From positions 79,550,079 to 79,614,078 of the forward strand of contig NC_035433.2 in assembly GCF_002127325.2 (NCBI RefSeq): DNA of 64,000 nt, written 5' to 3'. Positions 611-54,413 of the stretch are shown piece after piece (within the stretch, counting starts at the first letter, position 1; each line of letters starts with the position of its first letter). Both the position numbers and the translations under genes were made by a program. The DNA comes from Helianthus annuus. Taxonomy: Eukaryota; Streptophyta; Magnoliopsida; Asterales; Asteraceae. Below the pieces are notes generated by a model, which searched no databases, was not told where the DNA came from, and saw only the letters and a list, made by a program, of their open reading frames with translations.

Positions 611-2629
611 ATGGCAAACAACAATCTGACTGCAATGGTGCAAAACCTCAAGCACAATGCTGAGCTAGGAAGTAGCGACAAACCTCCTTTGTTGATAAAC
701 GAGCTTGATTTTCCTGAGTGGCAAGAGCGTTTCGAAAGGTATGTACGAGCGAAAGACATCAAAATCTGGTTGTGTATTGTCAAAGGATGTGGAGCTACTC
801 CAGTACGTACGTTGACGATTGATACATATTTGGCACTCACTGACGACCAAAAGAGATTTTTTCACTGTGAAGAGAAAGTTATGTCAATGATAACGATGGC
901 AATGTCGCAATCTATACTTCATACGTTCCGTAAGAGAAATAGCTCAAAGGAATTGTGGGATAGTATGGTCCAGCGATATGAAGGAAACGAAATGTACAAG
1001 AAGCGACGTCTCGAACGTTTGAAGACTCAATTCGTTGTGTTCAAGGCTTTAAGAAATGAATCATTTGATGACACAGTGAACCGATTTTATCATCTGCTGA
1101 GCGAACTTGACAGAAGTCAAGAGGGTATCTACACTGAATTTGAGAAGGTTGAGAAGTTTCTGAATTGTCTTTCAAGAGAATGGAACATGTACACCGCATT
1201 GATTAGAGAGGGTATTCTCTATGAGGAGCTTTCATTGGAAGAAGCTGTTCAAAAACTAAGGGGTTATGCTTGGAATATGGAAGATCAAGCATCGGATTTC
1301 GAGAAGATCCAAGATCCTCAGTTATATAAGGCTTCGAAACCAATGGAGAAGAGTAGTAACAGTGGAGTCGGTGTTGCTTTGTATTCGGAGAATGAAGGTT
1401 CTACAAGTGAACACGCCTTTATAAGCAACAATTTTAGTCCAAGTGGAACAACCAATTCCAATCAATGGATGTACTCTTCTAGTGGAGCTCAGAAATCTCA
1501 AGGAACAAGTTTGAACATTCCTAAGATAGATGCAAGTTGTTTGAAGTTGATTGAAGAAAATATGAGTCTGTTGGCGTCCTTCATGACTGCCTACGAGAAC
1601 TTCTGTCTTGGAAAGCTCGTTGAACCGTCAAGTCTCGATGAGGACTTTGATCAGATAGATCAAGACGAAATGGAAGAACTTGATCTACAACTCAATATGG
1701 CACTGTTAGTCCGTAGAGCGAAGAAGTTTTTGTTGAAGACAGGTAGGAAGTTCATAGGAGGTCAGACAAAGACTCGAATGGGAGTCAACATGTCAAAGGT
1801 AAAATGTTACAACTGCGGTATCTATGGGCATTTCGCACCGGATTGTCGAAAGCCGAAAATGGAAAGATCTGATAGAGACAACAACTCCCGAGGAAATAAT
1901 TCAAGACCTCACAACAATGCATCAACTGCTACCTCTAACTCAAGTGCTCGTTCAAGTGGGTCTGAAAATCCTACACCTTCGACAAACAATGCTATGGTGG
2001 CTCAACCTCTACAGAGTGTGACTGAGCCTTATGACTGGGGTTGTGCTTTGGAAGACATCTCAGGAGCAATTGTGTCACAAGCATTTATAGCTGAAATTGT
2101 GAACGAAGAAGTGTATGAAGAGGTTGTCGAAGAGACTAGCATTGAGGAGCTTGTGGTTGTAGCTGAAGTTTTTGGGGAAGAGTTGGATTCGGGGAATGTT
2201 GCTGAGAATGAAGACTCCTCGATTGAAGAGACCGTTGAAAAGTCTAACAAGACAGAAGATGGAGAACAGGGAGAACGTTTGGAATTCAACATCTCCACAA
2301 CCGAAATGCAGCAATTTGCGGATGCAGAAGCTAAAAGGTTGGAAGAAAACTCCGTTGAAAACAAGGCTTGTGCATTCATGGCTGGCATTGAGGTAAAATC
2401 ATCTTCTGTAGATAAGCGATGTGCTAGATGTGTTGAGTTTGTTACTAAGATTGATAGATATGCACTTCATAACACAAACTTAATTGCAGATTTAGAAAAA
2501 TCCAGAGAACTCATTGCTGTTTTGTCTAATTCGGATAAAGAACACCGAATTAAGATAAAAGCGCTGAAAATGATATCTCTGAATTCGAGAGACTTGTGGC
2601 TCAGGGAAATCTTAGAAATCAGGAATTAA
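611..2629 (+). CDS. gag: Gag protein, N-terminal part (element A1)
   Basis: Structural Gag of a copia element, which packages retroelement RNA into cytoplasmic virus-like particles. I take the ATG at 611; the open frame extends four codons upstream only through a non-ATG start. Residues about 30-240 look like the UBN2/Gag-polypeptide domain (PEWQERFERYV, KELWDSMVQRYEG, NRFYHLLSELD). A CCHC zinc knuckle follows (CYNCGIYGHFAPDC, near residue 400), then an N/S-rich and a very acidic E-rich stretch. The frame ends at a TAA at 2627-2629 that A2 shares. A donor-like GAG|GTAAAA at 2390-2398 lies in phase 0 upstream of this stop, so the working Gag-Pol product may leave the frame there by splicing. 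The equivalent of the A2 nonsense codon (46662-46664 region) is intact here. Confidence 0.88.
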   Translation: MANNNLTAMVQNLKHNAELGSSDKPPLLINELDFPEWQERFERYVRAKDIKIWLCIVKGCGATPVRTLTIDTYLALTDDQKRFFHCEEKVMSMITMAMSQSILHTFRKRNSSKELWDSMVQRYEGNEMYKKRRLERLKTQFVVFKALRNESFDDTVNRFYHLLSELDRSQEGIYTEFEKVEKFLNCLSREWNMYTALIREGILYEELSLEEAVQKLRGYAWNMEDQASDFEKIQDPQLYKASKPMEKSSNSGVGVALYSENEGSTSEHAFISNNFSPSGTTNSNQWMYSSSGAQKSQGTSLNIPKIDASCLKLIEENMSLLASFMTAYENFCLGKLVEPSSLDEDFDQIDQDEMEELDLQLNMALLVRRAKKFLLKTGRKFIGGQTKTRMGVNMSKVKCYNCGIYGHFAPDCRKPKMERSDRDNNSRGNNSRPHNNASTATSNSSARSSGSENPTPSTNNAMVAQPLQSVTEPYDWGCALEDISGAIVSQAFIAEIVNEEVYEEVVEETSIEELVVVAEVFGEELDSGNVAENEDSSIEETVEKSNKTEDGEQGERLEFNISTTEMQQFADAEAKRLEENSVENKACAFMAGIEVKSSSVDKRCARCVEFVTKIDRYALHNTNLIADLEKSRELIAVLSNSDKEHRIKIKALKMISLNSRDLWLREILEIRN

Positions 2630-4063
2630 AATCTGAACTTGAAATGAATCAAAATTGTGTTTTGGAAAAAGATAATCTGATTTTAGATTTGCAATGAAAG
2701 ATTGAAAAGTTCAGGGATTCATCCGAAGTGATGAATTTCTGTATTAACAGCCAACGTCTCAAAGAATCTGAGGAAGAAATGTTCGGCATTTGTTATACTA
2801 AGGTGCCCCCTCCAGTAAACCATAACTATACATCGATGCCAAGCATTGATCCTGAATTGGCAAATTTTGTGCCAACGACCTCTCTGACGGTTGAACCGCA
2901 AAGTAAGTCAGAATCTCAGCCAGATGAAGTTACTGACTCAGATCAGTCGAAGATGAGTGGAGTTTCAAAGAAAAATGAGGTGAATCTTGAAAACATTGAA
3001 AATTTGACAAGCAATAAGATTTTGGAAATTTTCAATCAAGTTCAAAATGTGAAGTCAAAACCAAAGTTACGTGGGAAAACTAAAAAAGCTTTGAAAAATG
3101 TCCCTAAAACTGAGTTTGTTAAAGGGGAGGATTTTGTCAAAGAAGAAGTAAAAATCGAAACAGGTTCCAACTCTCAGTTTGTGAACCAAATTTTGAAAAA
3201 TTCCACCAACGCCTCATCATCTCGACTGATCATGAGGAACGTCCAAAGAATGGTGCAAAAATTCACAAATTCTATAAGTGTCGTGGGAAAGGACACTTAG
3301 CGGCAGACTGTCCAGATGACAAGGGTAAATCTCTTGTTGATCCTGATCAAAAGAAACCTTTTGTTGAAAAACCACAAAATGAAAAAGTTAATGTTGAAAA
3401 GAAAAATGGTAAAAATCAGAAGGTTGAGAAAAACAAAGTGATTAAACAAGAAGTAAAACCAGTTGTCAAACCAAATGTTAAATCACAACAAAATTAGGAT
3501 CAAGAGGAAAAACCCGTTGTTACTAACCATGGGGACAGATCGGAAAATGTATCTCAAAGACATGATACTCGTGAGAAAACCCCTCACAGACGACAAAATC
3601 ATGTTACCTTTCAAGTAGTTGAGAATGACCAACGCTCTGGAGGTTCGAACAACAACTATGTTAGACCTCATGCACAGAACAGATTCGTGAATGACCGAAA
3701 TGCGTCACCCCCCCGATTTCCAAGTCAAAGACCGCATTCGGATAATCATCCACGATCATTCTCAAGACACGAAGATGCTCCTAGATTTGGTAGGAATTTT
3801 GAGCCACCCAGGAATCAAAATTACAGTTACCAAAACTATGGAAGCCGAGGGTATGGAAACTCTGGTTATACCAACAGATCGTCAACTCCGTATAATCCAC
3901 GATTTGCGGGGACTCATTCCAACAATTTCCGAAATGGAAATGGTGGAAACAGAGGCGATGATGGTTATTTCAAAGAGTTTTCTTATGTTAACGAATCAGG
4001 ACGACCCAAGACCATCATGGCTTGGGTCCCACACTCTAACTAAATTTTTGTTGGGGAGTGTAG
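2393..4063 (+). pseudogene. Gag C-terminal region / candidate intron (element A1)
   Basis: In the relatives B and C this stretch is an uninterrupted continuation of gag: a coiled coil, a second zinc knuckle and a conserved end AWVPxSN before the stop. Here it is broken by stops near 2627, 2695 and 3496, by frame changes, and by a private 1-base deletion near 3222. The second knuckle lacks its first Cys (YKCRGKGHLAADC preceded by F). The end is recognisable at 4000-4043 (MAWVPHSN then TAA). The segment is bounded by GAG|GTAAAA at 2393 and by GTGTAG|G at 4058-4064, both phase 0, so it may be an intron. Loss of coding capacity inside it, with an open exon before it, fits that reading. Plain decay is the alternative. 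Confidence 0.7.
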
Positions 4064-5747
4064 GAGCAGCTGAAGAGGGCTATCTATATTTGGTATATCG
4101 ATAGTGGCTGTTCCAGACACATGACAGGAAATAAAGAGTTATTGAACAATATTAAACAAATTCGTGGTGGTTATGTGAATTTTGCCGGTGAAAGGGTGGT
4201 TACATCACCGGTGAAGGCTCTGTGTCAAATGGAAAAATCACGCTGCATAAAGTGAACTACGTTGAAGAACTGAAGCATAACTTGATGTCGGTTTCTCAAA
4301 TCTGTGATAACAAATACACGATGCTTTTCACTGATAAAGCTTGCTTCGTTTTGCATCCGGGATTTGTTGTTCCTAAAGATTGGATCGTTATGAGGGCTCC
4401 AAGGGTGAATAACACATATGTCATGGACATGCGCCCGTTGGTTAACTCAACTGCTCCAGTGACTTGTCTACTTTCAAAGGCAACTGAAGATCAATCGTAT
4501 CTCTGGCATAGGAGAATGGGCCACGTGCATCTGCGAAAAATGAACCACTTAGTGAAAAACAACTTAGTGTTGGGGTTCCTCTACGTAGTTTCAATATGCA
4601 CAACAAATGTGAATCATGTGAAAAAGGAAAAATCAAACGAAAGCCTCAGAAACCGAAAACAGTTAACTCAATCCAAAAACCACTTGAGTTGCTTCACATG
4701 GATCTTTTCGGCCCGATCCATGTTGCTAGCATTGGTGGGATGTCTTATTTCTTAGTTGTCACTGACGATTTCTCACGTTACTCTTGGGTATTTTTCTTAA
4801 AAACAAAGGATCAAACCGCTGGTATTTTAAGAGACTTATTCAAACAACTTGAGAAAAATTATTCACTTCCTATTAAGAAAATCCGAAGTGACAACGGCAC
4901 TGAGTTTAAAAATCATTATATGGATGAGTTATGTCGGGAAATGGGAATAATTCATCAGTTCAGTGCTCCTTATGTTCCTCAACAGAACGGAGTTGCAGAA
5001 CAGAAGAATCGTACCCTGATTGAGGCGGCCCGCACTATGCTTTCTGAATCAAAATTGCCAATTTTCTTATGGGCCGAGGCGGTAAACACTGTATGTTATG
5101 TGTTAAATCATGTGCTTACTGTCAAAAGAGAAGATAAAACGTGTTATGAATTGCTTGAAAACAGGAAACCGAACTTATCTGGTTTTCAACCTTTTGGGAT
5201 TAAGTGTGTTATCAAACGCACCAAAGATACTCCTAAAATGGGGGAAGTTGGTGAAGTTGGGTTCTTTTTGGGATATGCCAATGGAACTCCAAACAAACGC
5301 GTTTATAACATCAAGAAGCGAACAGTGGAGATCGTGTTTGATATAACTCCTTTGAGTTTCGATCCTCCACCGTCCGAATTTGGTCTCAAAAGTGGTTATG
5401 ATTATGATAAATTATTTGATTCATTTGATCTTTCTGATGTTTCAGAAGAAGATTCGGAGGTTGTATACACACATCTTGTGAACAAAGATGAAGTGGATGC
5501 GAGCTGGAGAGCAAGTATTCCTACTAATGTGTCTTCGAATGTTCCAGTCGCTGATTCTTCGACCTTAAATGATGTTGTTGTTGAGCAGATCCCCAATGCA
5601 GCTGCTCAAACTACAAGTGGAGATCTATACGTTGACTTTTCAGCATATCCAAATGTTGATGCGTCTTCTGGTAAGGGTGAAGCTTCTAGTAGTAATGCAA
5701 ATGCTGAGGGGGAGATTCAATCGAATATGGGAATCAATCTTCAAGCT
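4064..5747 (+). pseudogene. pol: Pol fragment: protease and integrase (element A1)
   Basis: Starts with the aspartic protease active site (W-Y-I-D-S-G at 4091-4108), then the GAG-pre-integrase zinc site (WHRRMGHVH near 4504; CESC near 4608). The integrase core follows, with D (HMDLFGP near 4700), D (RSDNGTEF near 4882) and E (QNGVAEQKN near 4990), then a serine/acid-rich linker. Two single-base losses break the frame: near 4191, where A2 has an extra A, and in the G run 4571-4575. A2 shares the second, so it is ancestral. The frame ends in the linker where B1 is joined. RT and RNase H are absent, so no functional polyprotein can be made. Confidence 0.88.
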
Positions 5748-8209
5748 CCGACATCTACTGGAGGAGTACCCTCTGAAGTACCATGAACTGCTGTTGTTGG
5801 GGCTTCTTGATCTGCATCCACAAATTCATCATCCTCTGAAGATTCGTTCAATTCGTTTGCATCATGAAAATCCTCATTGTTGAGAGTATTGTTGTTCACC
5901 GAAGAAGATGGTTCTTGATTAACAAGAATTGGACGAACCACCGGTGAAACTGTTGCATTGTCACTCTCGAAAAACATCCTAGCCGCAGCATTTTCTTCAA
6001 CGGCTTCAACATTGATCGAATTGAAGAAGTCATCATACTCTTCTTGCAAAGCGTCATGCTTACTTTGCAAGTCACTCAAATTCTCATTCACAGTAGTATG
6101 TTTGTCTTGCAAGTCAAACAAACTAGCTTGTAAAGCATCATGTTTGCCTTGCAACTCAGACATACTTTTCTCCATTTCAGCATATCTAGCATGCAGCCTA
6201 GTACATTCATCACAATTAACAGCAGTGGGTTCATCGACACATACCTGACTTGATGAACCGTCGACATTAGCCATAAAGGCTGAATGGAGAGAAGACGAAG
6301 TATAAGCAGCTTGATCCACCAGAATAGATCTTCTTTGAGTTTCTGCTGCAGCTTCCTCCAAAAGTTCATCAAAGTCAACATCATCCGAAACATTAGATGT
6401 CTCACCCACATGATCATCACCAGAGTTGGATGATTCTTCATCAACACTCCTGCTGTATCCAGAGGAGTCTTCATCTTCAGACGATTCACCACCACTGGCA
6501 GAAGATTCTCCACCACTGGTGTGAACTAGCTTCTTCACAACCTGAGCAAAACATGCTGTTCCATCGGGAGCATCACCACCCAACTGGATTGACCAGTCAC
6601 AACCTTCATCTACCTGAACCGCAAGTGCCCGGTTGGTTTGGTTGTTGACAGGTACCATGGTACGATCATTGTTTCTGTTCTGCCGGTTGCCTTGGTTTCT
6701 GAAGGGGTTTTGATTCCCGTGCTGTGCTGGCTTTGTACATTCCCGTTTAAAGTGACCCCGTTCACCACAGTTGAAGCACTTTACAGCTTGCTTATCGAAC
6801 CCATACTTGGTGTCTCGCTTACTTTCCAAGCTGGTTCTTCCAGTACTTTCCATCCAATCCTTTGCTCTTCTCACAGCACTAGCAAAGGCCCACTTGATGT
6901 CCATCAAGTCCATTTCCTCTTTATCAATCTGCCTGTAATCTTCTTGTGTCAGATTAATGTTGCCAATCTGACCTTCTATCAATCCACAGTATGCGCTCAC
7001 TACAGTGTTAAGCAGCTCCATGTGTTCCTTAGCTACTTCTACACTGATTTTAGAGAAACTTGACGTGTCAAGCTGTACGGTACCTGTCTTCGATTGTTGA
7101 CCAGCAGATGATGTTCCTCCATAACATGCACGCTGTTGTTGAGCAGGAGGCGGAGGAGGAGGTGGTTGTATTGGATTTCCGTACATATCTGTGGTGGGAG
7201 GTGGCTTAACAGGAACTTGTATTGGGTTGCCAAAACAATCTGTGCTTGTGACAAACGCTGTTTGAAGTGGAGCATGTGGACCGGTTCTTGCAGACGAAGA
7301 ATTGGAAGTTCCACAGTACATTTCTGGATTCTGTGGCAATGGAACTCTCTTCGCCTTCAATGTTTCCTCCTGATCCTTGTTTTCCAAAAGTTGAACGAAT
7401 TCGTTGATATTAGTGGTTCTCAACACTCCGTTGTACTTCAGGATTTCCAAGAAACTACTCCATTGAGGAGGCAAAGCATCAGCAAACTTCTTCACAACTT
7501 CAGCTTGAGTTGTCACTACACTATAATTATCCAATTCCGTAAGCAGATGATAAAATCGGCTTGTCATATCTCCCAAGGACTCCTTATCCATACAAGTGAA
7601 ACCTTCAAATTCTTTCTTGAGAAGATCATGACGCATTTGACGTGTTGCTGCATTTCCCACTCCTCTGTTTTTCAATCCGTCCCACAACTTCTTTGTTGTC
7701 TTGAAGCTGACAAACTGATGGTAGATATCCTTGCTCAATGCCTGAGTGAGAATGGCGTATGCCTTCTTTTCCAGATCATAGGTTTTCTTTTTATCTTCTG
7801 GAAGATCAGCAAACGTAGCAGAATCTGAAGCAGCAACCTCTATGGCTTGATCGAAATCTGTGGTGAAACGTATCCACAGTTCGGTATTTTGACCAAGAAC
7901 ATATGTTTTAAATCTCTCAACCCATCCTGGATATTCATTCAAATGCATCAACTTTGGAGGTCGATTCAAACTTCCTGTTTCACTTTCGCTTAGTAGAATA
8001 CTTTGAATGCTCGGAGTTTGATTCGATACCAAAGCCCATTGATTTCCCTGAGAAGAAGTTGATACCGGCGATTCAGCCCATAAAGGAGATGACCTTGTAT
8101 TTGTGTATTTTCCATCGTCTGGAGCCGATGTACCCCACCATGAGGGAGTGACATTTGATCTTGTATATTCACCATTATCTGGAGCAGGATTCCACCAACT
8201 CGGATTCAT
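5741..8209 (-). CDS. gag: Gag fused in frame to the post-integrase linker (element B1)
   Basis: An uninterrupted 822-codon frame starting at the ATG at 8207-8209 (residues MNPSWWNP). Residues about 80-300 match the UBN2-type Gag domain (PGWVERFKTYV, KLWDGLKNRG, SRFYHLLTELD). A proline/glutamine-rich stretch follows, then a CCHC knuckle (CFNCGERGHFKREC, near residue 475), an acidic serine-rich region and a short coiled coil with repeats of LQxKHDALQ. At about residue 725 the coiled coil switches directly into the acidic linker that in B2 and B3 lies between integrase and RT. This is the result of an in-frame deletion of about 3 kb. The last few codons run into A1 sequence. It is a chimera that could still give a Gag-like protein but no enzymes. 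Two stop codons that break B2 gag are absent here. Confidence 0.85.
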   Translation of the reverse strand: MNPSWWNPAPDNGEYTRSNVTPSWWGTSAPDDGKYTNTRSSPLWAESPVSTSSQGNQWALVSNQTPSIQSILLSESETGSLNRPPKLMHLNEYPGWVERFKTYVLGQNTELWIRFTTDFDQAIEVAASDSATFADLPEDKKKTYDLEKKAYAILTQALSKDIYHQFVSFKTTKKLWDGLKNRGVGNAATRQMRHDLLKKEFEGFTCMDKESLGDMTSRFYHLLTELDNYSVVTTQAEVVKKFADALPPQWSSFLEILKYNGVLRTTNINEFVQLLENKDQEETLKAKRVPLPQNPEMYCGTSNSSSARTGPHAPLQTAFVTSTDCFGNPIQVPVKPPPTTDMYGNPIQPPPPPPPAQQQRACYGGTSSAGQQSKTGTVQLDTSSFSKISVEVAKEHMELLNTVVSAYCGLIEGQIGNINLTQEDYRQIDKEEMDLMDIKWAFASAVRRAKDWMESTGRTSLESKRDTKYGFDKQAVKCFNCGERGHFKRECTKPAQHGNQNPFRNQGNRQNRNNDRTMVPVNNQTNRALAVQVDEGCDWSIQLGGDAPDGTACFAQVVKKLVHTSGGESSASGGESSEDEDSSGYSRSVDEESSNSGDDHVGETSNVSDDVDFDELLEEAAAETQRRSILVDQAAYTSSSLHSAFMANVDGSSSQVCVDEPTAVNCDECTRLHARYAEMEKSMSELQGKHDALQASLFDLQDKHTTVNENLSDLQSKHDALQEEYDDFFNSINVEAVEENAAARMFFESDNATVSPVVRPILVNQEPSSSVNNNTLNNEDFHDANELNESSEDDEFVDADQEAPTTAVHGTSEGTPPVDVGA

Positions 8210-13706: not shown

Positions 13707-15385
13707 GCCACTCTCATCACACGATTATGCATGTGCTTCTAAATCACACATCAATATGTGACTTGTTGGGAGTAATATGGCATGTGTGCTAAGTAGAGTT
13801 AGTGGAACTTTATTCTAGCAATTATAACAAATACCTGTGAATTCTTAGATGCTTGGTAAATCTTAGGAATATAACCTTAAATATACTCAAGATTCTTGCG
13901 TTCATCTTACAAAGCCAAGTTTGGCTCTTTCACTTTTGCTTAGATATCGAGGTTCATATTTACAAGAAGGAAATGCAATCATGATGTGTTATACATTGCA
14001 AAAGAAACACATGTGTAAAATCAATTTGTTCTTGAAAATAAACTAATAACCCTTCATTTGAAGTTACTAGTGAAAAATGAGTCTCACTGTATTATACACA
14101 TGAAGTTTTTAAAGGGTTTGAGAAGGAGAAATCAAGTATTTCCATTAAACCTATTCTCATTTTTCATATCACATAGTTGTCTAACTCTATGTCACTTTTA
14201 ACCAACTTCATTAAAACACACATCCACATATATAAGGGAGCCCATTGTTATGACAACTACTTCTTCCACATATGATTTTTTTCCAACTCACGTTGAAATA
14301 TGTATCTTGTTGAGTAATAATATAACACATGCTAAGTGGAGACTGAGGCACTTTACTATAGTCACAACCATGAAATTAAGAAGCACACAAGTGATTTCTT
14401 AGATTCTTCATAGATTTTGTGGTGCATTTTAATAGGAGAGTATTATGTTCATGATGTGCTTTGACGTTGTGAACATATAATCATGGATGTTCTCGCAAAA
14501 ATATGACAACAAACGAGTACATTTTAACAACTTCTTTCCTTTAAAAAATATGTTCTTAATTTACTATAAAAACGTGTACAAAAAGATAAAATGTCCTAAC
14601 TTGAAGATATGATTTATGATCACATATCTTTGACAGTTTTCGAAACGTAGTCTAGTAACAACCCTAAAATAAGCACTCCAGTGATTACTTAGATTCTTTT
14701 TAGATTTTAAGATTTATTTTAGATCCTATCGGGATTCATGCTTTGTCTTGAGAGTGACGGTGGGTAAAGATTACAAAGCCAAGTTTTGGCGCTTTTGGCC
14801 ATTGTTTAGTTTTCAAGGTTCATATTTACAAGAATGAGATACAATCTGTTGTGTTATACCTGGCAGTAGAAATTCACATATGCAAAATCCGATGTTTTAA
14901 AAAACTAAAAATTAATAATATAACATGTGCTAGGTGGAGGAGACCGAAGCACTTCACTATATAGACAACCATGAAATTAAGAAGCACACAAGCAATTTCT
15001 TAGATTCTTAATAGATTTAATGATTGTTTTAGATCCGACTAAGATTCATGCTTTCATTTTTAGAGTGATAACGTGTAAAGATTGCATAGCCACGTTTGGA
15101 ACTTTTTTTGCTTTTGTCTTGATTTGAAGGTACATTTTGCATGAAGGTAATATATATGTTTGTGATATGTTTCAACATTGTGATGGTAGAAAAACATATG
15201 CACACTCAAGATGTTTTCAAGAAATATCTAGTAACACTTAATTCAAAGTCCTTGTGAAAAATGAGTGCCATCTCTTTATGTTGTACACATGAAGTTTTTA
15301 ACGGATTATGAATTCACAATAATCAACACAAATTGTATTGCACTTGCTGGCTATTTGCTTCTTATCTTCAATCTGCTAACTAGCC
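13707..15385. repeat. Repeat block D, copy 1
   Basis: Non-coding AT-rich block present three times in direct orientation: here, 28329-29310 (right part only) and 40641-42319. It is built of three degenerate units of roughly 550-600 bp. The words AATATAACATGTGCTAGGTG-like recur at about 13765, 14310 and 14905. TTACAAAGCCAAG-like recurs at about 13905, 14770 and 15085. ACACATGAAGTTTTTAA recurs at about 14097 and 15285. Copy 1 is interrupted at TAGCC by the B2 LTR. Its origin is unknown; it looks like a decayed satellite or an internal part of another mobile element. Confidence 0.8.
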
Positions 15386-17926: not shown

Positions 17927-20900
17927 TTACTCTTGCTTGACCTTAATGCCGTTTACCAATAATAAGAAATCAAATCTAGATTTGTCAAAAGCTTTGGTAA
18001 ATAAGTCGGACGTTGGTCATCGGTGTGGACCAGCCCTTAACAACATCGATTAGCCTTTTCTCAAAGCAATCACGTATGAAGTGATATTTGATTTCGATGT
18101 GTTTGGTCTTTGAATGCTGCACAGGATTTTTAGTGATATCTAAAGCAGCAGAATTATCAACGTAAATAGGAGTAGTTAGGAATTCAAAACCGTAGTCCCG
18201 CATTTGTTGTTGAATCCAAAGAACTTGGGAGCAACAACTTGAGGCAGCAATGTATTCAGCTTCGCATGTTGATGTAGCTACACACGTCTGCTTCTTGCAC
18301 TGCCATGTGACTAGGCGATTTCCTAAGAACTGACATCCAGCCGTTGTGGATTTACCGTCGATTTTGCATCCGCCAAAATCAGAATCACTGAAAGCTACCA
18401 ATTCAAAGTTATTATCCCTAGGGTACCACAGACCGGTGTCAGGGTACGCCTTCAAATAACGAAAAATCCTTTTAACGCAGTAAGATGTGAGGCCTTCGGG
18501 TTAACTTGATATCTGGCAAGCAGGGGGTACATTATGTCTGGCCTTGATGCTGTGAGGTACATAAGAGATCCGATCATAGCGCGATAGTTTGAGGGACTAA
18601 CAGCTTCTCCCTTCAAATCTGGAGTAATTCCGTGATTAGTTGGCAATGGGGTACCAATGGGCGTTGCATCAGACATCTGGAACCGGCTCAAGATGTCACC
18701 AACATATTTAGTCTGATGGATGAATATCCCAGACTCCGTTTGTTGTACTTGTAGGCCCAAGAAGAAAGTCATTTCCCCCATAGCACTCATCTCGAATTTA
18801 TCCTGCATAATGCGCTCGAATTCCCTACACAAGACATCATTAGTAGAACCAAAAATAATGTCATCAACGTATACCTGTACCAGAAGAAGATCTCCATCTT
18901 GTTCCTTGATGAAAAGAGTACAGTCGATAAGACCTCTACGAAAACCGTTCTCCAGCAGATAAGTGAGATAAGGTTGCATACCAAGCTCGCGGTGCTTGAT
19001 GAAGACCATAAAGAGAGCTAAAGAGCTTTGTTGAGCAACCAAACCCGATCGGGATGGATAGGATCTTCAAAACCTGGAGGCTGTTCGACGTACACCTCTT
19101 CTTCAACCACACCATGTAAAAATGCACTTTTCACGTCCATCTGATAAACCTTGAATCCTTTGAAGGACGCATAGGCTAGAAAGATTCGAATTGCTTCGAG
19201 ACGTGCCACTGGTGCATAGACTTCGTTGTAGTCGATCCCTTCAATCTGACGAAAACCTTGAACGACTAAACGAGCTTTGTTTCGGATAACAACTCCGCGG
19301 TCATCCTTTTTGCATTTGAAAACCCAACGGGTACCAATGTTCTTGTATCCAGCAGGTTTCTCTACGAGTTTCCAGACACCCAGCTTCTGGAATTGTTGCA
19401 GTTCTTCCTGCATTGCTTCAACCCAAGCGTTATCTTTCAAGGCTTCTTTCCACGTTCTTGGTTCTTCCTGTGAGACATAACACGCGAAAGACCAATCGTT
19501 TTTGTTGCCCGGATTCTCGAATAGCTGCATACAAGCCTGCATTGTTGTTGTTTCGCAACATGTTTCTTGTTTGAACGCCACTTTGCACATTTCCAATGAT
19601 GTTTTGTTGAGGATGGGTATTATGAATCCTTGTTTCTGGATTATCTGGAACTGGAACATTTATACCCAGATTGTTGAGGTTAAGATCAACAACCAATTCA
19701 AGGCCCGAAATTGACGAAGAGGATGATGCAGTAGCCTCAGCTGTTCTATGAGCATCCACTGGAGGAGTACCCTCTGAAGTACCATGAACTGCTGCTGTAG
19801 GAGCTTCCTGATCTGCATCTAGAAATTCATCATCCTCTGAAGATTCGTTCAATTCGTTTGCATCATGAAAATCCTCATTGTTGAGAGTATTGTTGTTCAC
19901 CGAAGAAGATGGTTCTTGATTAACAAGAATTGGACGAACCACCGGTGAAACTGTTGCATTGTCACTCTCGAAAAACATCCTAGCCGCAGCATTTTCTTCA
20001 ACGGCTTCAACATTGATCGAATTGAAAAAGTCATCATACTCAAACATCCAAGGTTGACCCGGATTTTTGACTGGCAAGGTGTGCCTTTGTACTCTGACCT
20101 CAGACCATTCCTCGACCCTTTTAGTCTCTAGATTCCAGACTCGTAAGTTAGGGGTGGCATACCCAAGAAAGTATCCATCAATTGCTCTTGCCCCAAACTT
20201 TCCATTAGGATCGATGATTGTGCATGGAGCTCCAAACGGTTCTAGATAAGACAAATCTGGTTTCCGTTTTTGAAGAAGCTCAAAGCAGGTCTTGTTGTGT
20301 CTTTTGACTGTAAGGACTCTGTTCAATGTGTAACATGCAGAGGCCACAGCTTCAGTCCAGAATGGAATGGGTAGCTGCGACTCTACCAACATTGTCCTAG
20401 CAGTCTCGATCAATGTGCGGTTCTTACGTTCAGTGACACCATTCTGTTGAGGAGTATAAGCTGCACTAAACTCATGAAGAATACCCTTTGAAGTGCAGAA
20501 CTCCGCCATGGAATGATTCTTAAATTCAGTACCATTGTCGCTACGTATCCGCCTAACCTTCAACTTATACAAATTCTCAATCTGAATGATCAAGTTTTTG
20601 ATGATGCCAAAGGTTTCACTCTTGTGTGCCATGAACGCAACCCAAGAAAATCTTGAATAATCATCAGTAACCACGAGGCAGTATTGATCACCCCGAATAC
20701 TCTTGTGCTTGACAGGACCGAACAAATCCATGTGCAAACGTTCAAGAGGAACTGCCACTGTGTTGATCTTCTTTGTAGGGTGCTTCTTCTTTGTTTGCTT
20801 TCCTTTCTGGCACGAAACACAGACGTCTTGAAGATGGAAATTTTTGAGGGGAACACCATTCACCAATTCATTTGAAACCAAATGATTCATTTTGCGTAAG

Positions 20901-21376
20901 TGAATGTGACCCATTCGTCTGTGCCAAGAGATAGTGTCTTTTTCTGTGGCTTTGGAAACGAAACAAGTTGCTTGTGCAGACGTAGTAATAGCTTGGCTCA
21001 TGTCAAGGACATACAAATCATTTATCCTTGGAGCCGACAAGAGAATCCATTCTTTTGGAATTTTGAAGCCGGGTTTCAGCACATAACATCCATTAGCATC
21101 AAAGTGTACTGAAAATTTCTTGTCACAAATTTGAGAAACACTAAGAAGATTGTGATCAAGTTGTTGCACAAAATTGATCTTGTCAAAGCTGACAATCCCG
21201 TTAGATATCATTCCTTCATCCGTTATATATCCACCCTTATCTCCAGCAAAAGCAACATAACCTCCTCTAATAGATTTAACGTCGTAGAGAAGCTTTATGT
21301 CGCATGTCATGTGCCTGGATGCCCCACTATCAACAATCCAGTGACTACTGATAGTTCCTCCTGAAGCACCCTGCAC
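17927..21376 (-). pseudogene. pol: Pol polyprotein of B2, frameshifted
   Basis: Order on the minus strand: protease (IVDSGASRHMT near 21330), GAG-pre-integrase zinc site (WHRRMGHIH near 20920; CVSC near 20820), integrase with [15 protein letters not shown] and QNGVTERKN (E), acidic linker, RT with YVDDIIFG (near 18860), and RNase H with SDSDFGG, STCEAEY and VDNSAALD. Protease to linker is open from 21376 to about 19500. An extra T at 19498-19503 then shifts the frame. An insertion of about 10 bp near 19007-19020 and a lost base near 18479 split RT and RNase H further. The B3 copy is open throughout, so these lesions are private to B2. The frame begins at a non-ATG GTG right after the gag stop, so it needs readthrough or splicing. 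Confidence 0.88.
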
Positions 21377-21394
21377 ATGAACTCAAATGAATTA
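21371..21394 (-). promoter_or_regulatory. Gag-pol junction with branch-point/acceptor-like signals (B2)
   Basis: On the minus strand the gag stop TAA (21392-21394) lies in AACTAAT, which fits a plant branch point CTAAY. Fifteen bases later comes GTGCAG|G (21371-21376), a good acceptor. The matching donor-like site is TAG|GTATGT at 23255/23254 (CAG|GTATGT in B1, 6245/6244). Both are phase 0. A second in-frame stop (TGA) lies between TAA and the acceptor, so single-stop readthrough would not reach pol. Confidence 0.6.
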
Positions 21395-24300
21395 GTTGGA
21401 GATGGGGACCCAAGCCATTGTGGTCTTGGGTCTTCCATTTTCATCAATGACAATAACTTCTTGTCTTTGATGGTTGGTGAATTGTGATGGTCCCCCTGAT
21501 TCAGTAACCGATTTAGGTTTCCATGTCTGTTTTGTTTTACCAGTATCTTTCTTTAAAATTTTAACTTCTTGATTGTTTGAAATTGTAGAAGTTTCTGGTT
21601 TTACAGCAACAGATTGTTTTTGAACCACATCAGTTTTAATTGCTTTTTCAATTTTCTTGACCTGTTGCCTTTTCTGTTTCTTTTCCCTTTCTTTTACAAG
21701 TCGGGGATCTTGTTTTGTGGAAACAGTTGGCTTATGGTCAGTTTTGCCACGGGGATCATCAACCTTTCCTTTTTGTTTATGAAGATATGGACAATTACGA
21801 ATAATATGTCCAATGGTTCCACATTCAAAACATGATCTTCGTTCTACAAACCCCGAAGAATCATGTGATCGTCTAGCCGATGATGTTGAACTTTGTGAGC
21901 CCGAGGTACTAGGTTTTGAGCTACTTGGTTCATTTCTTTTCTTGACAATAGCTTTCTTGACAAAATCTAAGTTAGATTGATTTTCAAACTTTTCAATTTT
22001 GTCTGTTCCCGTCGATTTCACAAAGTTAACATTTTTCTTCTTCTTTTGATTCGGCTTCTTGTCAACTTGAGCCGGTGTTTTACCTTTGGGTTTGGTGTGA
22101 TTTTGCTGCTTTGGCACTGTTGGTAATTTCTTGTTACCAAATTGTTTTCGAATTTCAGCCTTTGGAATAGGAGGACACTGTGTAACTGTAACTTTAGGTC
22201 CTGCCTTTCCCAAGAACTTACTAGTCGAATTCTCAAAGACTTTGCAGATTAAGGATTGATTAACATTCTTAATGGGAAAATCTTTGTCTGAGTAAATTTT
22301 ATCATCACCAACTAGAGTGTACAGCAAATTCACACTCTCCGGCTCTTCTGCAGATGAGGACTCAGTTGCAATAGTCTTAGCGGGTTGTACAGGGGGATCA
22401 CATAGAATGTGATTCTCAAGAGGTATGTCCTCATTTTTGACTACCGCATCAGACTTTGCTGGGACAGTATCATCAGATTCATCATCAGACGAATCAGCAT
22501 CCTCAATCACAACTGGAGGATCTTGATTCTGTTCAGCACTCACAAATGTATCTGCTGACACATCTGAATCTGAGGATACTTCCTTTTGGTATCCGAGTCC
22601 TGCAGCAAACTCCTTAACATCTAGAGGCACAGAAGGTTCAAAGAATACCCTGTCCTCTTCATCAGGCATGGCGTCATAATTATGTCTCACTGGTGGTGGA
22701 CACTTCTTGTAGCCTATGCATGTGACATCTCTCTTTTCCTTCTGAACATCAATGATGTGATCTAACACATAGCTAGAGCTCAAATAACTGTCTAGCTTGA
22801 GTTGGATCGCATCACTTTCGGTTTTCACACAAGCCATCTCTTTTTGCATTGTCTCAAGGCGAGATATATACAAATTAATATCAGTTTGTTTTCTTGAAAC
22901 CATTTTAGTCAGTTCAGTTTTATCCTTCTTTAATGTTTCAATTACTGACTTAAATTCTTTTTCATGGTTTTCATAAAACATGTTGGCTTCTGTGCATTTA
23001 GAGAGGTCCACAGTCAATTTCTGATTGTGGAGAAAGGTCACATCATATTTTTCTTGCAAAGCGTCATGCTTACTTTGCAAGTCACTCAAATTCTCATTCA
23101 CAGTAGTATGTTTGTCTTGCAAGTCAAACAAACTAGCTTGTAAAGCATCATGTTTGCCTTGCAACTCAGACATACTTTTCTCCAGATCAGTACATCTAGC
23201 ATGCAACCTAGTACATTCATCACAATTAACAGCAATGGGTTCATCGACACATACCTAACTTGATGAACCGTCGACATTAGCCATAAAGGCTGAATGGAGA
23301 GAAGACGAAGTATAAGCAGCTTGATCCACCAGAATAGATCTTCTATGAGTTTCTGCTGCAGCTTCCTCCAAAAGCTCATCAAAGTCAGCATCATCCGAAA
23401 CATTAGATGTCTCACCCACATGATCATCACCAGAATTTGATGATTCTTCATCAACACTTCTACTGTACCCAGAAGAGTCTTCATCTTCAGACGATTCACC
23501 ACCACTGGCAGAAGATTCTCCACCACTGGTGTGAACTAGCTCCTTCACAATCTGAGCAAAACATGCTGTTCCATCGGGAGCATCACCACCCAACTGGATT
23601 GACCAGTCACAACCTTCATCCACCTGAACCGCAAGTGCCCGGTTGGTTTGGTTGTTGACGGGTACCATGGTACGATCATTGTTCCTGTTCTGCCGGTTGC
23701 CTTGGTTTCTGAAGGGGTTTTGATTCCCGTGCTGGGCTGGCTTTGTGCATTCCCGTTTAAAGTGACCCCGTTCACCACAGTTGAAGCACTTTACAGCTTG
23801 CTTATCGAACCCATACTTGGTGTCTCGCTTACTTTCCAAGCTGGTTCTTCCAGTACTCTCCATCCAATCCTTTGCTCTTCTCACAGCACTCGCAAAGGCC
23901 CACTTGATGTCCATCAAGTCCATCTCCTCTTTATCAATCTGCCTGTAATCTTCTTGTGTCAGATTAATGTTGCCAATCTGACCTTCTATCAACCCACAGT
24001 ACGCGCTCACTACAGTGTTAAGCAGCTCCATGTGTTCCTTAGCTACTTCTACACTGATTTTAGAGAAGCTTGACGTGTCGAGCTGTACTGTACTTGACTT
24101 TGATTGTTGACCAGCAGATGATGTTCCTCCATAACATGCACGTTATTGTTGTTGAGCAGGAGGAGGTGGAGGTGGTTGGATTGGATTTCCATACATGTCT
24201 GTGGTGGGAGGTGGCTTAACAGGAACTTGGATTGGGTTGCCAAAACAATCTGTGCTTGTGACAAACGCTGTTTGAAGTGGAGCATGTGAACCGGTTCTTG

Positions 24301-25219
24301 CAGCCGAAGAATTGGAAGTTCCACAGTACATTTCTGGATTCTGTGGCAATGGAACTCTCTTCGCCTTCAATGTTTCCTCCTGATCCTTGTTTTCCAAAAG
24401 TTGAACGAATTCGTTGATATTAGTGGTTCTCAACACTCCGTTGTACTTCAGGATTTCCAAGAAACTACTCCATTGAGGAGGCAAAGCATCAGCAAACTTC
24501 TTCACAACTTCAGCTTGAGTTGTCACTACACTATAATTATCCAATTCTGTAAGCAGATGATAAAATCGGCTTGTCATATCTCCCAAGGACTCCTTATCCA
24601 TACAAGTGAAACCTTCAAATTCTTTCTTGAGAAGATCATGACGCATTTGACGTGTTGCTGCATTTCCCACTCCTCTGTTTTTCAATCCGTCCCACAACTT
24701 CTTTGTTGTCTTGAAGCTGACGAACTGATGGTAGATATCCTTGCTCAACGCCTGAGTAAGAATGGCATATGCCTTCTTTTCCAGATCATACGTTTTCTTT
24801 TTATCTTCTGGAAGATCAGCAAACGTAGCAGAATCTGAAGCAGCAACCTCTATGGCTTGATCGAAATCTGTGGTGAAACGTATCCACAGTTCGGTATTTT
24901 GACCAAGAACATACGTTTTAAACCTCTCAACCCATCCTGGATATTCATTCAAATGCATCAACTTTGGAGGTCGATTCAAACTTCCTGTTTCACTTTCGCT
25001 TAGTAGAATACTTTGAATGCTTGGAGTTTGATTCGATACCAAAGCCCATTGATTTCCCTGAGAAGGTGTCGATACCGGCGACTCGGCCCATAAAGGAGAT
25101 GACCTTGTATTCGTGTATTTTCCATCGTCTGGAGCCGATGTACCCCACCATGAGGGAGTGACATTTGATCTTGTATATTCACCATTATCTGGAGCAGGAT
25201 TCCACCAACTCGGATTCAT
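21392..25219 (-). pseudogene. gag: Gag of B2, two nonsense codons
   Basis: ATG at 25217-25219. UBN2-like domain, then a proline-rich stretch, where a TAA near 24143 (CAR codon in B1) stops the frame. It reopens with the CCHC knuckle (CFNCGERGHFKREC near 23780) and acidic region, and stops again at TAG 23255-23257 (CAG in B1). The last part (23206 down to 21392) is open: coiled coil with repeated LQxKHDALQ, a second knuckle (CFECGTIGHIIRNCP near 21810), a lysine-rich tail and the conserved end MAWVPISN before TAA. The large size, about 1,275 codons with two knuckles, exceeds the usual 250-450 residues of short copia Gags. The second nonsense codon falls exactly at the donor-like AG|GT. Confidence 0.85.
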
Positions 25220-26135: not shown

Positions 26136-26147
26136 GCTCTGATACCA
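26136..26147 (-). other. Primer-binding site (B2), initiator tRNA-Met type
   Basis: TGGTATCAGAGC on the minus strand, two bases inside the 5' LTR. It is complementary to the 3' end of plant initiator tRNA-Met. Confidence 0.9.
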
Positions 26148-26787: not shown

Positions 26788-28330
26788 AACTCCCCCTTGG
26801 CTGTAGCTTTGTCTTTATCTTCTATGGTTGTAGACTCGTCTTGAACTTCGACGGTCTTTGGTCTTCGAGTTCTCAAAACTCTGATGTCCTTTCAAGTCTT
26901 CAATGTCGGAGGATCTTCAAAGTCTTCACATCTTGAAAGCAGAGAGTGTATCAACAAACTACCCGTATCATGTAGGAAGTGTGTTGACAAACTCCCCCTT
27001 AATATAAGCTCCCCCTTGAGTTATGCTCGTGAATGACTTGATCTTTACGAAGTGAGATCCTTGTGGTGTTGATGATGGCCAGCGGCAACTCGATCATCTT
27101 CATCAGTTGAGTGCCTTCACGTCATGTCTTGATTCCAGAGCTTGTCATCGACCATGTTCTCCTAGCCTTTAGAATCTGCACATGCAAGAAATCTAAACGC
27201 GTAATGAGAACAACTGCTTGGAATATAGTTAGCATAAACAAATGACACACGGATGACCATGTCACAATCAAACACCGTCCGACAGTCTGAAAGTTTTTCA
27301 AATTTATCAATTTCAGATTTTAACTTTCAAAACATGCAAATTTTGACCGTTTATGAAGATTTAGTCAGTTCGGTTTTCAGTCAGGTTTCAGGTAACGAAG
27401 ACTTGAGCTCCAACATCGTACGATCGAAAGTAAAGTAGAAAGAAAATCTTTTTGGCTTTTATAAAGTTTATATTAAAACAAGCCTAAAATCTTTTTGGTA
27501 TTTTTGAAATTAAAAGACAACAATTTAAAATCCTTTGAGTGTTATCAAACGACATCACCGCTAATGTCGTGTTGATATGCACCAAACGACGAAACTGTTT
27601 AAAAGAAATAATAACAGTTAATAACAGTTAAGCAGTACATAAATATTTACAGACATTCTTTTTGCGAGTTTCGAGGGTAAGAGAATCATATCAGTGTACG
27701 GTCATGCCAAAACACTCTTGTTGTTCAGTTAGTTAACATTAAGATAAGCATCCTATAACAATTATCGGTATTGTTGTCCACTTAAGCTCAACTTATCAGA
27801 TGTAATCATGGCGAGGGGATACGTTAAGGTATGATTTATACTTACCGACCGGTGTTCATCCACATCACGACACATTCCCGTATCAAGGTATGCACGAGAG
27901 TTCATCTTACCGGTGAGTATACCGATTATCATCTGTTTGACCGTATAAATTGTGAGATACTCACTTATTTTGATTTGAAAACAAGTCCTATGTGATATAA
28001 TCACTTATTGATGAGGAACTTGATTTTCGTATGCATGAGGGCACAGGTGCAAGTCCGTGAACAGGTCAGTACTTCCGTACAGCAGAGAGACGAACTTGAC
28101 ACCCGGATAAATGTGATATTTTATCACTTATTTGATATGGACATGTGATTGTTTATCACTTATTGAGGTCGAATGTAGTATGTATTATGTACACGTATGT
28201 ATAGAATCATGGAAGATCTAGACTTGCGTCCCCGTTATTTTTCGGAAAAAGATACAACCATGATACCCAGATGATAAGCAGCATAAAGACCGAATATCTC
28301 AGAACCTCGGCAATCTATCAAACGAAATTT
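26788..28330 (-). mobile_element. Truncated second B internal region (3' non-coding part only)
   Basis: Nearly the same as 16022-17570: polypurine tracts, hairpin array (about 27950-28160) and conserved blocks. It breaks off at 28329-28331 into block D. The shared TTC at the join is a 3-bp microhomology. With the LTR at 26150 it makes an LTR-internal-LTR-partial-internal array. Small differences from the left copy include an 8-bp length change near 27810 and an intact fourth hairpin. Confidence 0.88.
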
Positions 28331-29310
28331 CTTCATAGATTTTGTGGTGCATTTTAATAGGAGAGTATTATGTTCATGATGTGCTTTGACGTTGTGAACA
28401 TATAATCATGGATGTTCTCGCAAAAATATGACAACAAACGAGTACATTTTAACAACTTCTTTCCTTTAAAAAATATGTTCTTAATTTACTATAAAAACGT
28501 GTACAAAAAGATAAAATGTCCTAACTTGAAGATATGATTTATGATCACATATCTTTGACAGTTTTCGAAACGTAGTCTAGTAACAACCCTAAAATAAGCA
28601 CTCCAGTGATTACTTAGATTCTTTTTAGATTTTAAGATTTATTTTAGATCCTATCGGGATTCATGCTTTGTCTTGAGAGTGACGGTGGGTAAAGATTACA
28701 AAGCCAAGTTTTGGCGCTTTTGGCCATTGTTTAGTTTTCAAGGTTCATATTTACAAGAATGAGATACAATCTGTTGTGTTATACCTGGCGGTAGAAATTC
28801 ACATATGCAAAATCAGATGTTTTAAAAAACTAAAAATTAATAATATAACATGTGCTAGGTGGAGGAGACCGAAGCACTTCACTATATAGACAACCATGAA
28901 ATTAAGAAGCACACAAGCAATTTCTTAGATTCTTAATAGATTTAATGATTGTTTTAGATCCGACTAAGATTCATGCTTTCATTTTTAGAGTGATAACGTG
29001 TAAAGATTGCATAGCCACGTTTGGAACTTTTTTTGCTTTTGTCTTGATTTGAAGGTACATTTTGCATGAAGGTAATATATATGTTTGTGATATGTTTCAA
29101 CATTGTGATGGTAGAAAAACATATGCACACTCAAGATGTTTTCAAGAAATATCTAGTAACACTTAATTCAAAGTCCTTGTGAAAAATGAGTGCCATCTCT
29201 TTATGTTGTACACATGAAGTTTTTAACGGATTATGAATTCACAATAATCAACACAAATTGTATTGCACTTGCTGGCTATTTGCTTCTTATCTTCAATCTG
29301 CTAACTAGCC
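28329..29310. repeat. Repeat block D, copy 2 (right part)
   Basis: Matches 14404-15385 of copy 1 with few changes, then continues into 29311 without the B2 insertion. This empty site shows the pre-insertion sequence as TAGCC followed by TCCTTG. Confidence 0.88.
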
Positions 29311-33400: not shown

Positions 33401-33452
33401 TTTGCACTTAACAGTTGTGTTTGTGTAGATTTTCTATTTGCATTTTACAAAA

Positions 33453-36365: not shown

Positions 36366-36384
36366 TCTCTGAGTGAGTGTGCAG
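36363..36384 (+). promoter_or_regulatory. Gag-pol junction with branch-point/acceptor-like signals (C)
   Basis: Gag stop TAA within AACTAATC, then 13 bases to GTGCAG|G (36379-36385). The protease start follows in another frame (GGTIDSHRIVDSG-like). The acceptor is phase 0 relative to the donor at 34538/34539. Confidence 0.6.
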
Positions 36385-36419
36385 GAAGTTCCAGGAGGAA
36401 CTATCGATAGTCATAGGAT

Positions 36420-36966
36420 TGTTGATAGTGGAATGTCCTTGCACAAGATAGGCGACAGAAGAAATTGTTGCCTTTTGATGGAGAGGGAAGAAGAAAAGAA
36501 CACAAAAAAAAAAATCTGATGAAAGAATGTGTTTGAATGATGGTGCAAAAATTCGACCAAATGGAGAACGTGACAAAATTTTGGTCATTATGGTTTTTGA
36601 TCGGGTCCTTAGGAAAGATTCCAATGAAATGTATGCACCTGAAGAATGTCTGAAGTTTATAATCAACAAAATGGATGTGTAGTGTACATTTCTTCGCGGT
36701 GTGACTGAAGAAAATGTGTTTGTTGAACTAACTACACCGGATGTGCAAATGTCTTGGCATGGATTGAACATCCGCACACCATTTCTGATAGAGAAAGTCA
36801 AAGACCTTCGCTGGTGCAATGTGGAAGACCAGCCGGACCCGGAGGTTTATGATCTTGTTGCTGTCAAGAGATTATTCAGTAGCTACAAAATCGACTTTGA
36901 AGTCCACACCGGGTGGATATCCAGTTTGGGAGAATGCTCAGATTCCTTGCAATGCACGAAATAGTT
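36420..36966 (+). pseudogene. Foreign-looking coding segment in place of pol (element C)
   Basis: After a short protease start (IVDSG near 36419) the sequence departs from pol. One frame runs from about 36510 to 36963 with a single stop (TAG 36680-36682). It reads like protein on both sides: KILVIMVFDRVLRK and MYAPEECLKFIINKMDV before the stop, VFVELTTPDVQMSWHG and PEVYDLVAVKRLFSSYK after it. I do not recognise the family. It has no RT, integrase or RNase H motif. It could be a captured host exon or exons, as in transducing retrotransposons, or a very diverged remnant. A run of 12 A at about 36506-36517 precedes it. From about 37130 faint similarity to the end of pol resumes. Confidence 0.5.
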
Positions 36967-38888: not shown

Positions 38889-39121
38889 CTCAAGGGGGAG
38901 CTTATGTTAAGGGGGAGTTTGCCAACACACTTCCTACATGATACGGGTAGTTTGTTGATACACTCTCTGCTTTCAAGACGTGAAGACTTTGAAGATCCTC
39001 CGACATTGAAGACTTGAAAGGACATCAGAGTTTTGGTAACTCGAAGACCAAAGACCGTCGAAGTTCGAGACGAGTCTACAACTATAGAAGATAAAGACAA
39101 AGCTACAGCCAAGGGGGAGTT
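38889..39121 (+). promoter_or_regulatory. Three polypurine tracts before the 3' LTR (element C)
   Basis: AAGGGGGAG occurs at about 38891, 38909 and 39112. The last abuts the 3' LTR and is the expected plus-strand primer. The two upstream copies are also present in B2 (about 16222-16253) and B3, so they are conserved extras. Confidence 0.75.
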
Positions 39122-44991: not shown

Positions 44992-45003
44992 TGTTATCAG
45001 AGC
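44992..45003 (+). other. Primer-binding site (A2), one mismatch
   Basis: TGTTATCAGAGC, two bases after the LTR. It differs by one base from the TGGTATCAGAGC of B and C, so pairing with initiator tRNA-Met would have a mismatch near the 3' end. Confidence 0.8.
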
Positions 45004-54254: not shown

Positions 54255-54413
54255 AAGAAAGGTTGAAGATCTCAAGATCAATGAAGACCATGCACTGATC
54301 AAGGGGGAGTTTGTTAATGCACTTTAGGTGATAAGTGCATGACTCCCATGTTACCAATGAAAGGATGAAGATCTCAAGTCCAATGAAGACCATGCACTGA
54401 TCAAGGGGGAGTT
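54255..54413 (+). repeat. 102-bp tandem duplication of polypurine tract plus LTR edge (A2)
   Basis: The sequence from GAAGATCTCAAG through AAGGGGGAGT and the first about 40 bases of the LTR (54312 on) is repeated. The true LTR starts at 54414, exactly 102 bases later. The result is two polypurine tracts each followed by TGTTAATGCAC. Confidence 0.88.

Follow-up and report, generated by a model that had tools for sequence, protein, structure and literature searches.

We analysed a 64-kb window of the sunflower genome (Helianthus annuus, contig NC_035433.2, positions 79,550,079 to 79,614,078 of the forward strand; the coordinates below count from its first letter), in which Sirevirus-like Ty1/copia retrotransposons of three families, A, B and C, carry gag and pol as separate frames. 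In 26 genomic copies of families A and B, a segment running from a GT in the middle of gag to an AG directly before the protease sequence is absent base-exactly. Judged from these sequences, RNA of both families is very probably spliced at the two sites named, and there are strong indications that the copies lost the segment through reverse transcription of spliced RNA. The spliced RNA is in all probability translated as Gag-Pol in A and B, and it is likely, with somewhat less assurance, to be their main route to Pol.

In the mechanism that we propose, a long facultative intron would cover the 3′ region of gag with its stop codon, plus a short spacer. RNA left unspliced, which corresponds to the intron-bearing genomic form, would code for a long Gag that contains a second zinc-knuckle sequence. 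When a phase-0 donor in the middle of gag is spliced to a phase-0 acceptor that immediately precedes the protease, the part of Gag with the capsid and the first knuckle would be fused in frame to Pol. Since both splice ends fall at codon boundaries, the product would be independent of the frame relation between the unspliced gag and pol.

Intronless genomic copies of families A and B

If spliced RNA were reverse transcribed, it would leave copies without exactly the intron, and such copies were therefore expected. The junction probe for each family consisted of the 75 bases before the donor and the 75 bases after the acceptor (150 bases) and was searched against the genome; only the best 40 candidates were scored per probe, so the counts are not genome-wide frequencies. 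With the B probe, nine of the 40 scored places (the best of 1972 candidates) matched end to end at 87–99% identity, and 31 matched on one side. The A probe gave 17 end-to-end matches at 92–99% identity and 23 one-sided matches among the best 40 of 1147 candidates. We read the sequences of all 26 junctions, nine from B and 17 from A, and every one was base-exact at the predicted join.

The negative junction probes were those for C and for E, a family described below, only. None of the best 40 of 1392 candidates matched the C probe end to end, 39 of them matching on the acceptor side and one, C itself, on the donor side; the E probe, built with an out-of-frame donor, likewise gave no end-to-end match among the best 40 of 739 candidates. 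Exact loss of an intron at GT...AG sites that joins gag to pol in frame was thus found in A and B and not in C. The first-pass annotation of this DNA had proposed splicing at homologous sites in all three families, and the proposal is supported for A and B but not for C, in which the donor is weak, pol is broken and 0 of 40 scored places carry the junction.

Five of the nine intronless B copies have no stop for about 290 codons either side of the junction, while the stops around it number 14 in L052, two in L055, one in L056 and 19 in L058. In L050 and L051, the two of the nine that were examined for element ends, a primer site after sequence resembling a long terminal repeat (LTR) lies 2.7–2.9 kb before the junction; about 5.3 kb past it come three polypurine tracts and then LTR-like sequence. 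The primer site and triple polypurine tract are placed as expected for a complete LTR element.

Predicted splice sites and exons in the window

Donors were found where the first-pass annotation had put them, namely GAG/GTAAAA in A (2392/2393 in A1 and 47570/47571 in A2), CAG/GTATGT in B1 (6245/6244), TAG/GTATGT in B2 (23255/23254) and CAG/GTTCAA in C (34538/34539). The same is true of the acceptors, GTGTAG/G in A (4058–4064 and 49237–49243), GTGCAG/G in B (21376–21370) and GTGCAG/G in C (36379–36385), all of which are in phase 0 for pol, and of the distance from the gag stop to GTGYAG, which is 14, 15 and 13 bases in A, B and C, respectively. The sites were ranked with a hand-entered plant splice-site matrix, not one taken from a tool. 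By this matrix, the B donor ranks first of 144 GT sites in B1 and first of 239 in B2, the A donor fourth of 220 and fourth of 193, and the C donor 18th of 190. The acceptors rank second of 309 AG sites in B2, second of 213 in C, eighth of 280 in A1 and seventh of 238 in A2, and in B3 the donor comes first and the acceptor fourth of 297. Matrix rank alone would not settle splicing; it is the junction searches that settle it for A and B.

On the plus strand, the putative exon 1 of A1 (611–2392) contains gag with the capsid domain, the first zinc knuckle (Pfam Retrotran_gag_2 and zf-CCHC) and an acidic stretch up to the donor, and the frame stays open to 2626. The facultative intron (GTAAAA...GTGTAG, 2393–4063, 1671 bases), which is absent base-exactly in the 17 genomic copies, includes the gag stop TAA (4041–4043) and, if left unspliced, would supply the C-terminal part of Gag, broken in A1. 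Exon 2 (4064–4252) starts pol with the protease region and its DSG motif and has 63 open codons before a lesion. A2, also on the plus strand, has the same donor and acceptor around an intron of 1672 bases (47571–49242), followed by an exon 2 of 230 open codons that covers the protease and pre-integrase region (49243–49932).

The B elements lie on the minus strand. The gag of B2 exon 1 (23255–25219) contains two stops in this copy, the TAG at the donor being one. Its intron (GTATGT...GTGCAG, 21371–23254, 1884 bases), absent base-exactly in the nine genomic copies, encodes the end of Gag with the second zinc-knuckle sequence, and exon 2 (19433–21370), with protease and integrase, is open from the acceptor. 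Exon 1 of B1 (6245–8209) runs through gag to the donor CAG/GTATGT, and B1 is without an acceptor because an internal deletion has fused what follows the donor in gag to the tail of the integrase. This fusion (5741–6244, minus strand) is in frame and has 829 open codons. B3 contributes pol from integrase to reverse transcriptase (61262–64000), its gag, donor and acceptor lying just beyond the window in the stretch L046. In C, on the plus strand, the segment from the weak donor CAG/GTTCAA to the acceptor GTGCAG (34539–36384, 1846 bases) has the gag frame open to the stop at 36363, its splicing being unconfirmed, and exon 2 would be a stub with the protease start and only 44 open codons (36385–36516). 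Joining donor to acceptor had been said to restore gag-pol continuity in all three families; this holds in A and B2, but not in B1, which has no acceptor, or in C, which would gain only the 44-codon stub of pol.

The intron as coding sequence

The unspliced product would be a longer Gag with a second zinc-knuckle sequence in B and E. In B3 the frame is open for 1295 codons, starting before gag and ending at the MAWVPISN stop, and C has 978 open codons to the KAWVPLSN stop. For family A we used 20 of 40 listed genomic places, chosen by hand. Downstream of the donor, gag is open to the MAWVPHSN stop in three of the 20 donor-bearing copies (L011, L012 and L018) and stops earlier in 12. In L009, L016, L021, L022 and L023, gag is in another frame at the place of its usual stop and runs on until 38 bases past the acceptor. 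The intron length modulo 3 is 0, 1 and 2 in 3, 8 and 9 of the 20 copies, respectively; with all three length classes present, the unspliced frame relation is not kept, whereas the donor and acceptor are.

The exon 1 stretch before the donor has no stop in any of the 20 copies, and exon 2 has a stop within the stretch compared in two (A1 and L011), a contrast with the damaged intron that is biased because similarity near the acceptor was the basis for selecting the copies. Stop-free exons beside a damaged intron would fit an intron that tolerates damage. We set aside site conservation within family A as evidence (acceptor in 22 of 22 copies, donor in 20 of 22, with L010 and L014 having no donor region in the stretch), since the family is so uniform that such conservation has little power. 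A1, A2 and L028 have a lesion in common in the intron segment, and A1 (2626–4040) and A2 (47804–49219) have stops and frameshifts there in common. L028 lies 18.7 kb upstream of A1 and is 99.7% identical to it over the 2.2 kb compared; given this identity and the common lesions, the three look like local duplicates.

Other products of the family B donor

It is unlikely, though it is the strongest of the alternatives, that the donor serves mainly to make truncated Gag through several downstream acceptors, as in BARE1 and EVADE, with the Gag-Pol join as a minor product. A motif pattern at the B donor caught 101 predicted proteins, which are annotation models and some of which may represent contiguous DNA. 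Fifty-one read through the donor, 12 continue into the next gag segment in frame and six in another frame, 11 end within three residues, and 19 are classed as other, pattern mis-hits included; only two (P0006 and P0050) join the protease. These models speak for such a role, as do the spliced sunflower Ty1/copia RNAs with truncated GAG that are described in excerpts of PMC7730604. However, the models are annotation only, and production of truncated Gag would leave unexplained both the phase-0 acceptor before the protease in five of five families and the exact junction in 26 copies.

P0006 and P0050, which run across the B junction, were not counted as gene models that splice out the intron, as they may be intronless copies instead. 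P0059 (LOC110887807 of Helianthus annuus) has the B mid-gag donor joined to a site in the integrase, perhaps by a further splice or a further deletion. Several sunflower gag models (P0133, P0150, P0156, P0157 and P0171) change frame where they enter the gag segment that follows the B donor and meet a stop shortly afterwards, and these would give truncated Gag.

The gag/pol boundary and recoding

Less probable again is that splicing is incidental, that Pol comes from unspliced RNA by bypass, internal entry or a +1 shift, and that the intronless copies are by-products. According to excerpts of PMC2829016, the pol of many Sireviruses lies in +1 to gag, and internal entry or bypass is cited there together with a conserved inverted repeat at the boundary. 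Within the window, A has a pol-frame TAG immediately 5′ of the acceptor, which closes the pol frame past the gag stop; B has pol in the gag frame with two in-frame stops between them; and C has a pol-frame TGA downstream of the gag stop. The first pol-frame ATG is codon 20 in A2, 21 in B2 and 17 in C, in each case downstream of the DSG motif, which we take to be the protease active site, so that a Pol with active protease would need something fused upstream. Three simple routes were considered, namely one frameshift, one readthrough, and reinitiation from an ATG upstream of DSG, and each fails at the four acceptor-bearing boundaries of the window (A1, A2, B2 and C).

The first-pass annotation had excluded frameshifting and stop readthrough as a common mechanism. 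The exclusion holds at the window boundaries, but five of the 20 A copies, whose gag extends 38 bases into a pol that lies in +1, would formally permit a +1 shift. A short inverted repeat at the A boundary is also paired in the predicted fold, which speaks for recoding, yet the predicted structures are no stronger than those of shuffled sequences (z of −0.42 for A, 1.34 for C and 2.76 for B), and a conserved boundary stem-loop was rejected as a candidate. Recoding is further disfavoured in that the frame relation and spacing vary among A, B and C and among the A copies, while the splice phase is constant.

Derivation of the intronless form

Intron loss, as the exon sequences indicate, is the derived state and has probably occurred repeatedly. 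The exons of the intronless B copies L050–L052 are about 96–98% identical to those of the nearest intron-bearing copies. In a tree of B exon 1, L050 pairs with the intron-bearing B3 (support 0.987), L051 falls outside that pair, and L052 adjoins the intron-bearing B1 and B2. The tree requires four losses if introns are never regained; since some nodes have support of 0.83–0.92, we claim at least three for B. The 17 intronless A copies comprise 14 haplotypes, two of which are identical over 150 nt to intron-bearing copies (L061 and L062 with L011; L064–L066 with L016, L018 and L021). Because template switching in reverse transcription could mix haplotypes, these numbers of losses and haplotypes are not event counts. 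The interleaving of intronless with intron-bearing exons argues for derived loss and against one old deletion.

That the intronless form is an ancestral single open reading frame (ORF) with a later insertion of 1.7–1.9 kb, or that the copies are DNA deletion products, is highly improbable: although gag and pol share one ORF in most plant LTR elements according to excerpts of PMC2829016 and PMC6317226, L050–L052 are close to the intron-bearing copies and interleaved with them, all 26 junctions are exact removals between GT and AG, and families A, B, C, D and E each have such a gag segment, bounded by the same landmarks.

Families C, D and E

The generality sample comprised seventeen 10-kb stretches at round coordinates on 17 chromosomes, plus three stretches beside the window. 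The seventeen stretches held two protease starts, in L040 (family E) and L045 (family D), and one partial match without a start (L033); the three beside the window held B3 and one A copy. The phase-0 acceptor past the gag stop ranks first of 238 AG sites in D and first of 253 in E by the hand-entered matrix, and with A, B and C such an acceptor precedes the protease in five of five families. The earlier description of the switch as conserved in three families was thus too narrow for the acceptor, and it was too strong for the donor, which is weak in C and has no clear match in D and E.

A phase-0 donor of E only 90 bases before the acceptor would take out the stop-codon region alone, and we regard it as an alternative, candidate donor. 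For L049 (family E, oriented index 1993 and 3741), splicing from the best mid-gag donor, which is out of frame, would yield a short Gag. C (33429–36516) has a long open gag, and its pol frame closes 44 codons past the acceptor. The C protease stub is common, at 99–100% identity, to 39 acceptor-side places (C itself included), so C may be a pol-less, Gag-only family. Decay of the C donor when there is no Pol to make would fit the model, as a reading after the fact. Two predicted proteins of Tanacetum, P0086 and P0101, have VQG at the place of the acceptor, as GTGCAG/G would encode, a hint, at the protein level only, of the same acceptor.

We are tentative on whether Sirevirus-like elements with split gag and pol generally switch from Gag to Pol by splicing from mid-gag to an acceptor just before the protease, and hold this to be a real but somewhat doubtful possibility. 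Several observations weigh against Gag-Pol splicing, in its general form or in families A and B. C has no intronless copy among the 40 scored places, the phase-0 donors of D are modest and not top-scoring by the hand-entered matrix, and the best mid-gag donor of E is out of frame. Many sunflower models pair the B donor with other acceptors, so this donor may also make truncated Gag. In L009, L016, L021, L022 and L023, with gag open to 38 bases beyond the acceptor, a +1 frameshift is formally possible. The number of independent losses could be inflated by template switching, and the intronless copies tell that splicing occurs, not its frequency.

Lineage of the elements

Pol domains place A2, B2 and B3 among Ty1/copia retrotransposons, and A1, B1 and C have gag of the same kind. 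A Pfam search of A2 returned Pol_BBD, gag_pre-integrs, rve, SH3 and RVT_2 in this order over two open pieces, so the order is the protease, integrase and RVT_2-type reverse transcriptase of Ty1/copia elements; the Ty3/gypsy order of Ogre was not found, as integrase precedes reverse transcriptase here. The nearest named protein relatives of the B element are Helianthus proteins. A primer site of the form TGGTATCAGAG[CT], which we take to be the tRNA-Met primer site by which Sireviruses are recognized, occurs at 26147, 9127, 32564 and 39777 in elements of the B and C type; the A primer site is only TATCAGAGC, in a variant context, at 44995.

The ends of the B and C type carry three AAGGGGGAG polypurine motifs each (for example at 16251, 16234 and 16032, and at 38892, 38909 and 39111), and two such motifs lie near A2, at 54301 and 54403. 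The clustering of polypurine tracts before the 3′ LTR is that of Sireviruses. Their AT between the terminal polypurine tract and the TG of the LTR was not found at the C end, which reads AAGGGGGAG-TT-TGTTGG; the combined end motif of Sireviruses is given 95.7% identity in excerpts of PMC2829016, and is hence frequent but not universal. Sireviruses have a long gag with a central CCHC and, downstream of it, a coiled coil; here a long gag with CCHC is present, the second CCHC of B2 being just below the Pfam cut-off, and a Pfam scan of gag also returned a weak, sub-threshold match to a HAUS1 family. A single scan each of a viral contig and a genome contig collection found no relative. A, B and C are by these sequence features Ty1/copia elements, and we label them Sirevirus-like and not Sirevirus because the lineage rests on the primer site and polypurine tracts and the C end reads TT. 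A 300-bp stretch also occurs three times in the window at 100% identity, 13–14 kb apart (14404–14703, 28329–28628 and 41338–41637).

Comparison with known systems

Foamy viruses make Pol from a spliced RNA, which is a likeness to the scheme proposed here. Recoding signals between gag and pol were reportedly the subject of work by Gao in 2003, and splicing in Ogre that of work by Steinbauerova in 2008. Our literature searches of open-licence PMC papers found no description of spliced Gag-Pol in Ty1/copia elements, and excerpts of PMC1142308, PMC11963269 and PMC5009743 added nothing further on the matter.

In Ogre elements (Ty3/gypsy, Tat lineage), two ORFs are separated by an intron that only a fraction of the transcripts loses by splicing, which allows the complete polyprotein to be translated (excerpts of PMC6317226). 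The likeness is that an intron is removed so that a polyprotein can be made. The Ogre intron, however, lies between GAG-PROT and the reverse transcriptase ORF, with a mean of 274 bp between the ORFs (same excerpts), whereas the sunflower elements are Ty1/copia and their intron precedes the protease, measures 1.7–1.9 kb and is itself part of gag. Bianca, a Ty1/copia lineage, resembles them in having two ORFs apart (mean gap 172 bp) and a presumed special expression of its polyprotein, but the excerpts of PMC6317226 report no splicing for it, and its primer is a half tRNA-Ile, unlike the tRNA-Met fit of the B and C type.

Facultative introns are known from other Ty1/copia elements, namely barley BARE1, whose donor in gag is CAG/GTAT (excerpts of PMC3735527), and Arabidopsis EVADE (excerpts of PMC12786077). 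In both, splicing yields Gag only, from a single gag-pol ORF, according to the same excerpts; the proposed sunflower logic likely reverses this, with unspliced RNA giving Gag and spliced RNA giving Gag-Pol. Sireviruses share the long gag, the central CCHC knuckle, the several polypurine tracts and gag and pol in different frames, but bypass or internal entry is proposed for their pol, and the excerpts of PMC2829016 mention no gag-to-pol splicing. Tyran and Varan, expressed sunflower Ty1/copia elements, have spliced RNAs by nanopore direct RNA sequencing; the isoforms described in excerpts of PMC7730604 differ in coding for truncated GAG or RT-RH, and the Gag-Pol join is not among them.

Pol expression in Sirevirus-like elements with out-of-frame pol has so far been ascribed to internal entry or bypass (excerpts of PMC2829016), and this is now testable. 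For two sunflower families, the precise intron-loss copies give a sequence-based answer on Pol expression, and the proposed splicing may explain the Helianthus protein records that resemble short gag-pol fusions (P0006 and P0050). If the proposal is true, a stretch of gag coding sequence can also serve as an intron. If it is true as a general switch, the retained intron would be a coding module by which a long Gag is made in place of a short Gag-Pol, and it would be explained how such elements produce Pol with neither frameshift nor readthrough.

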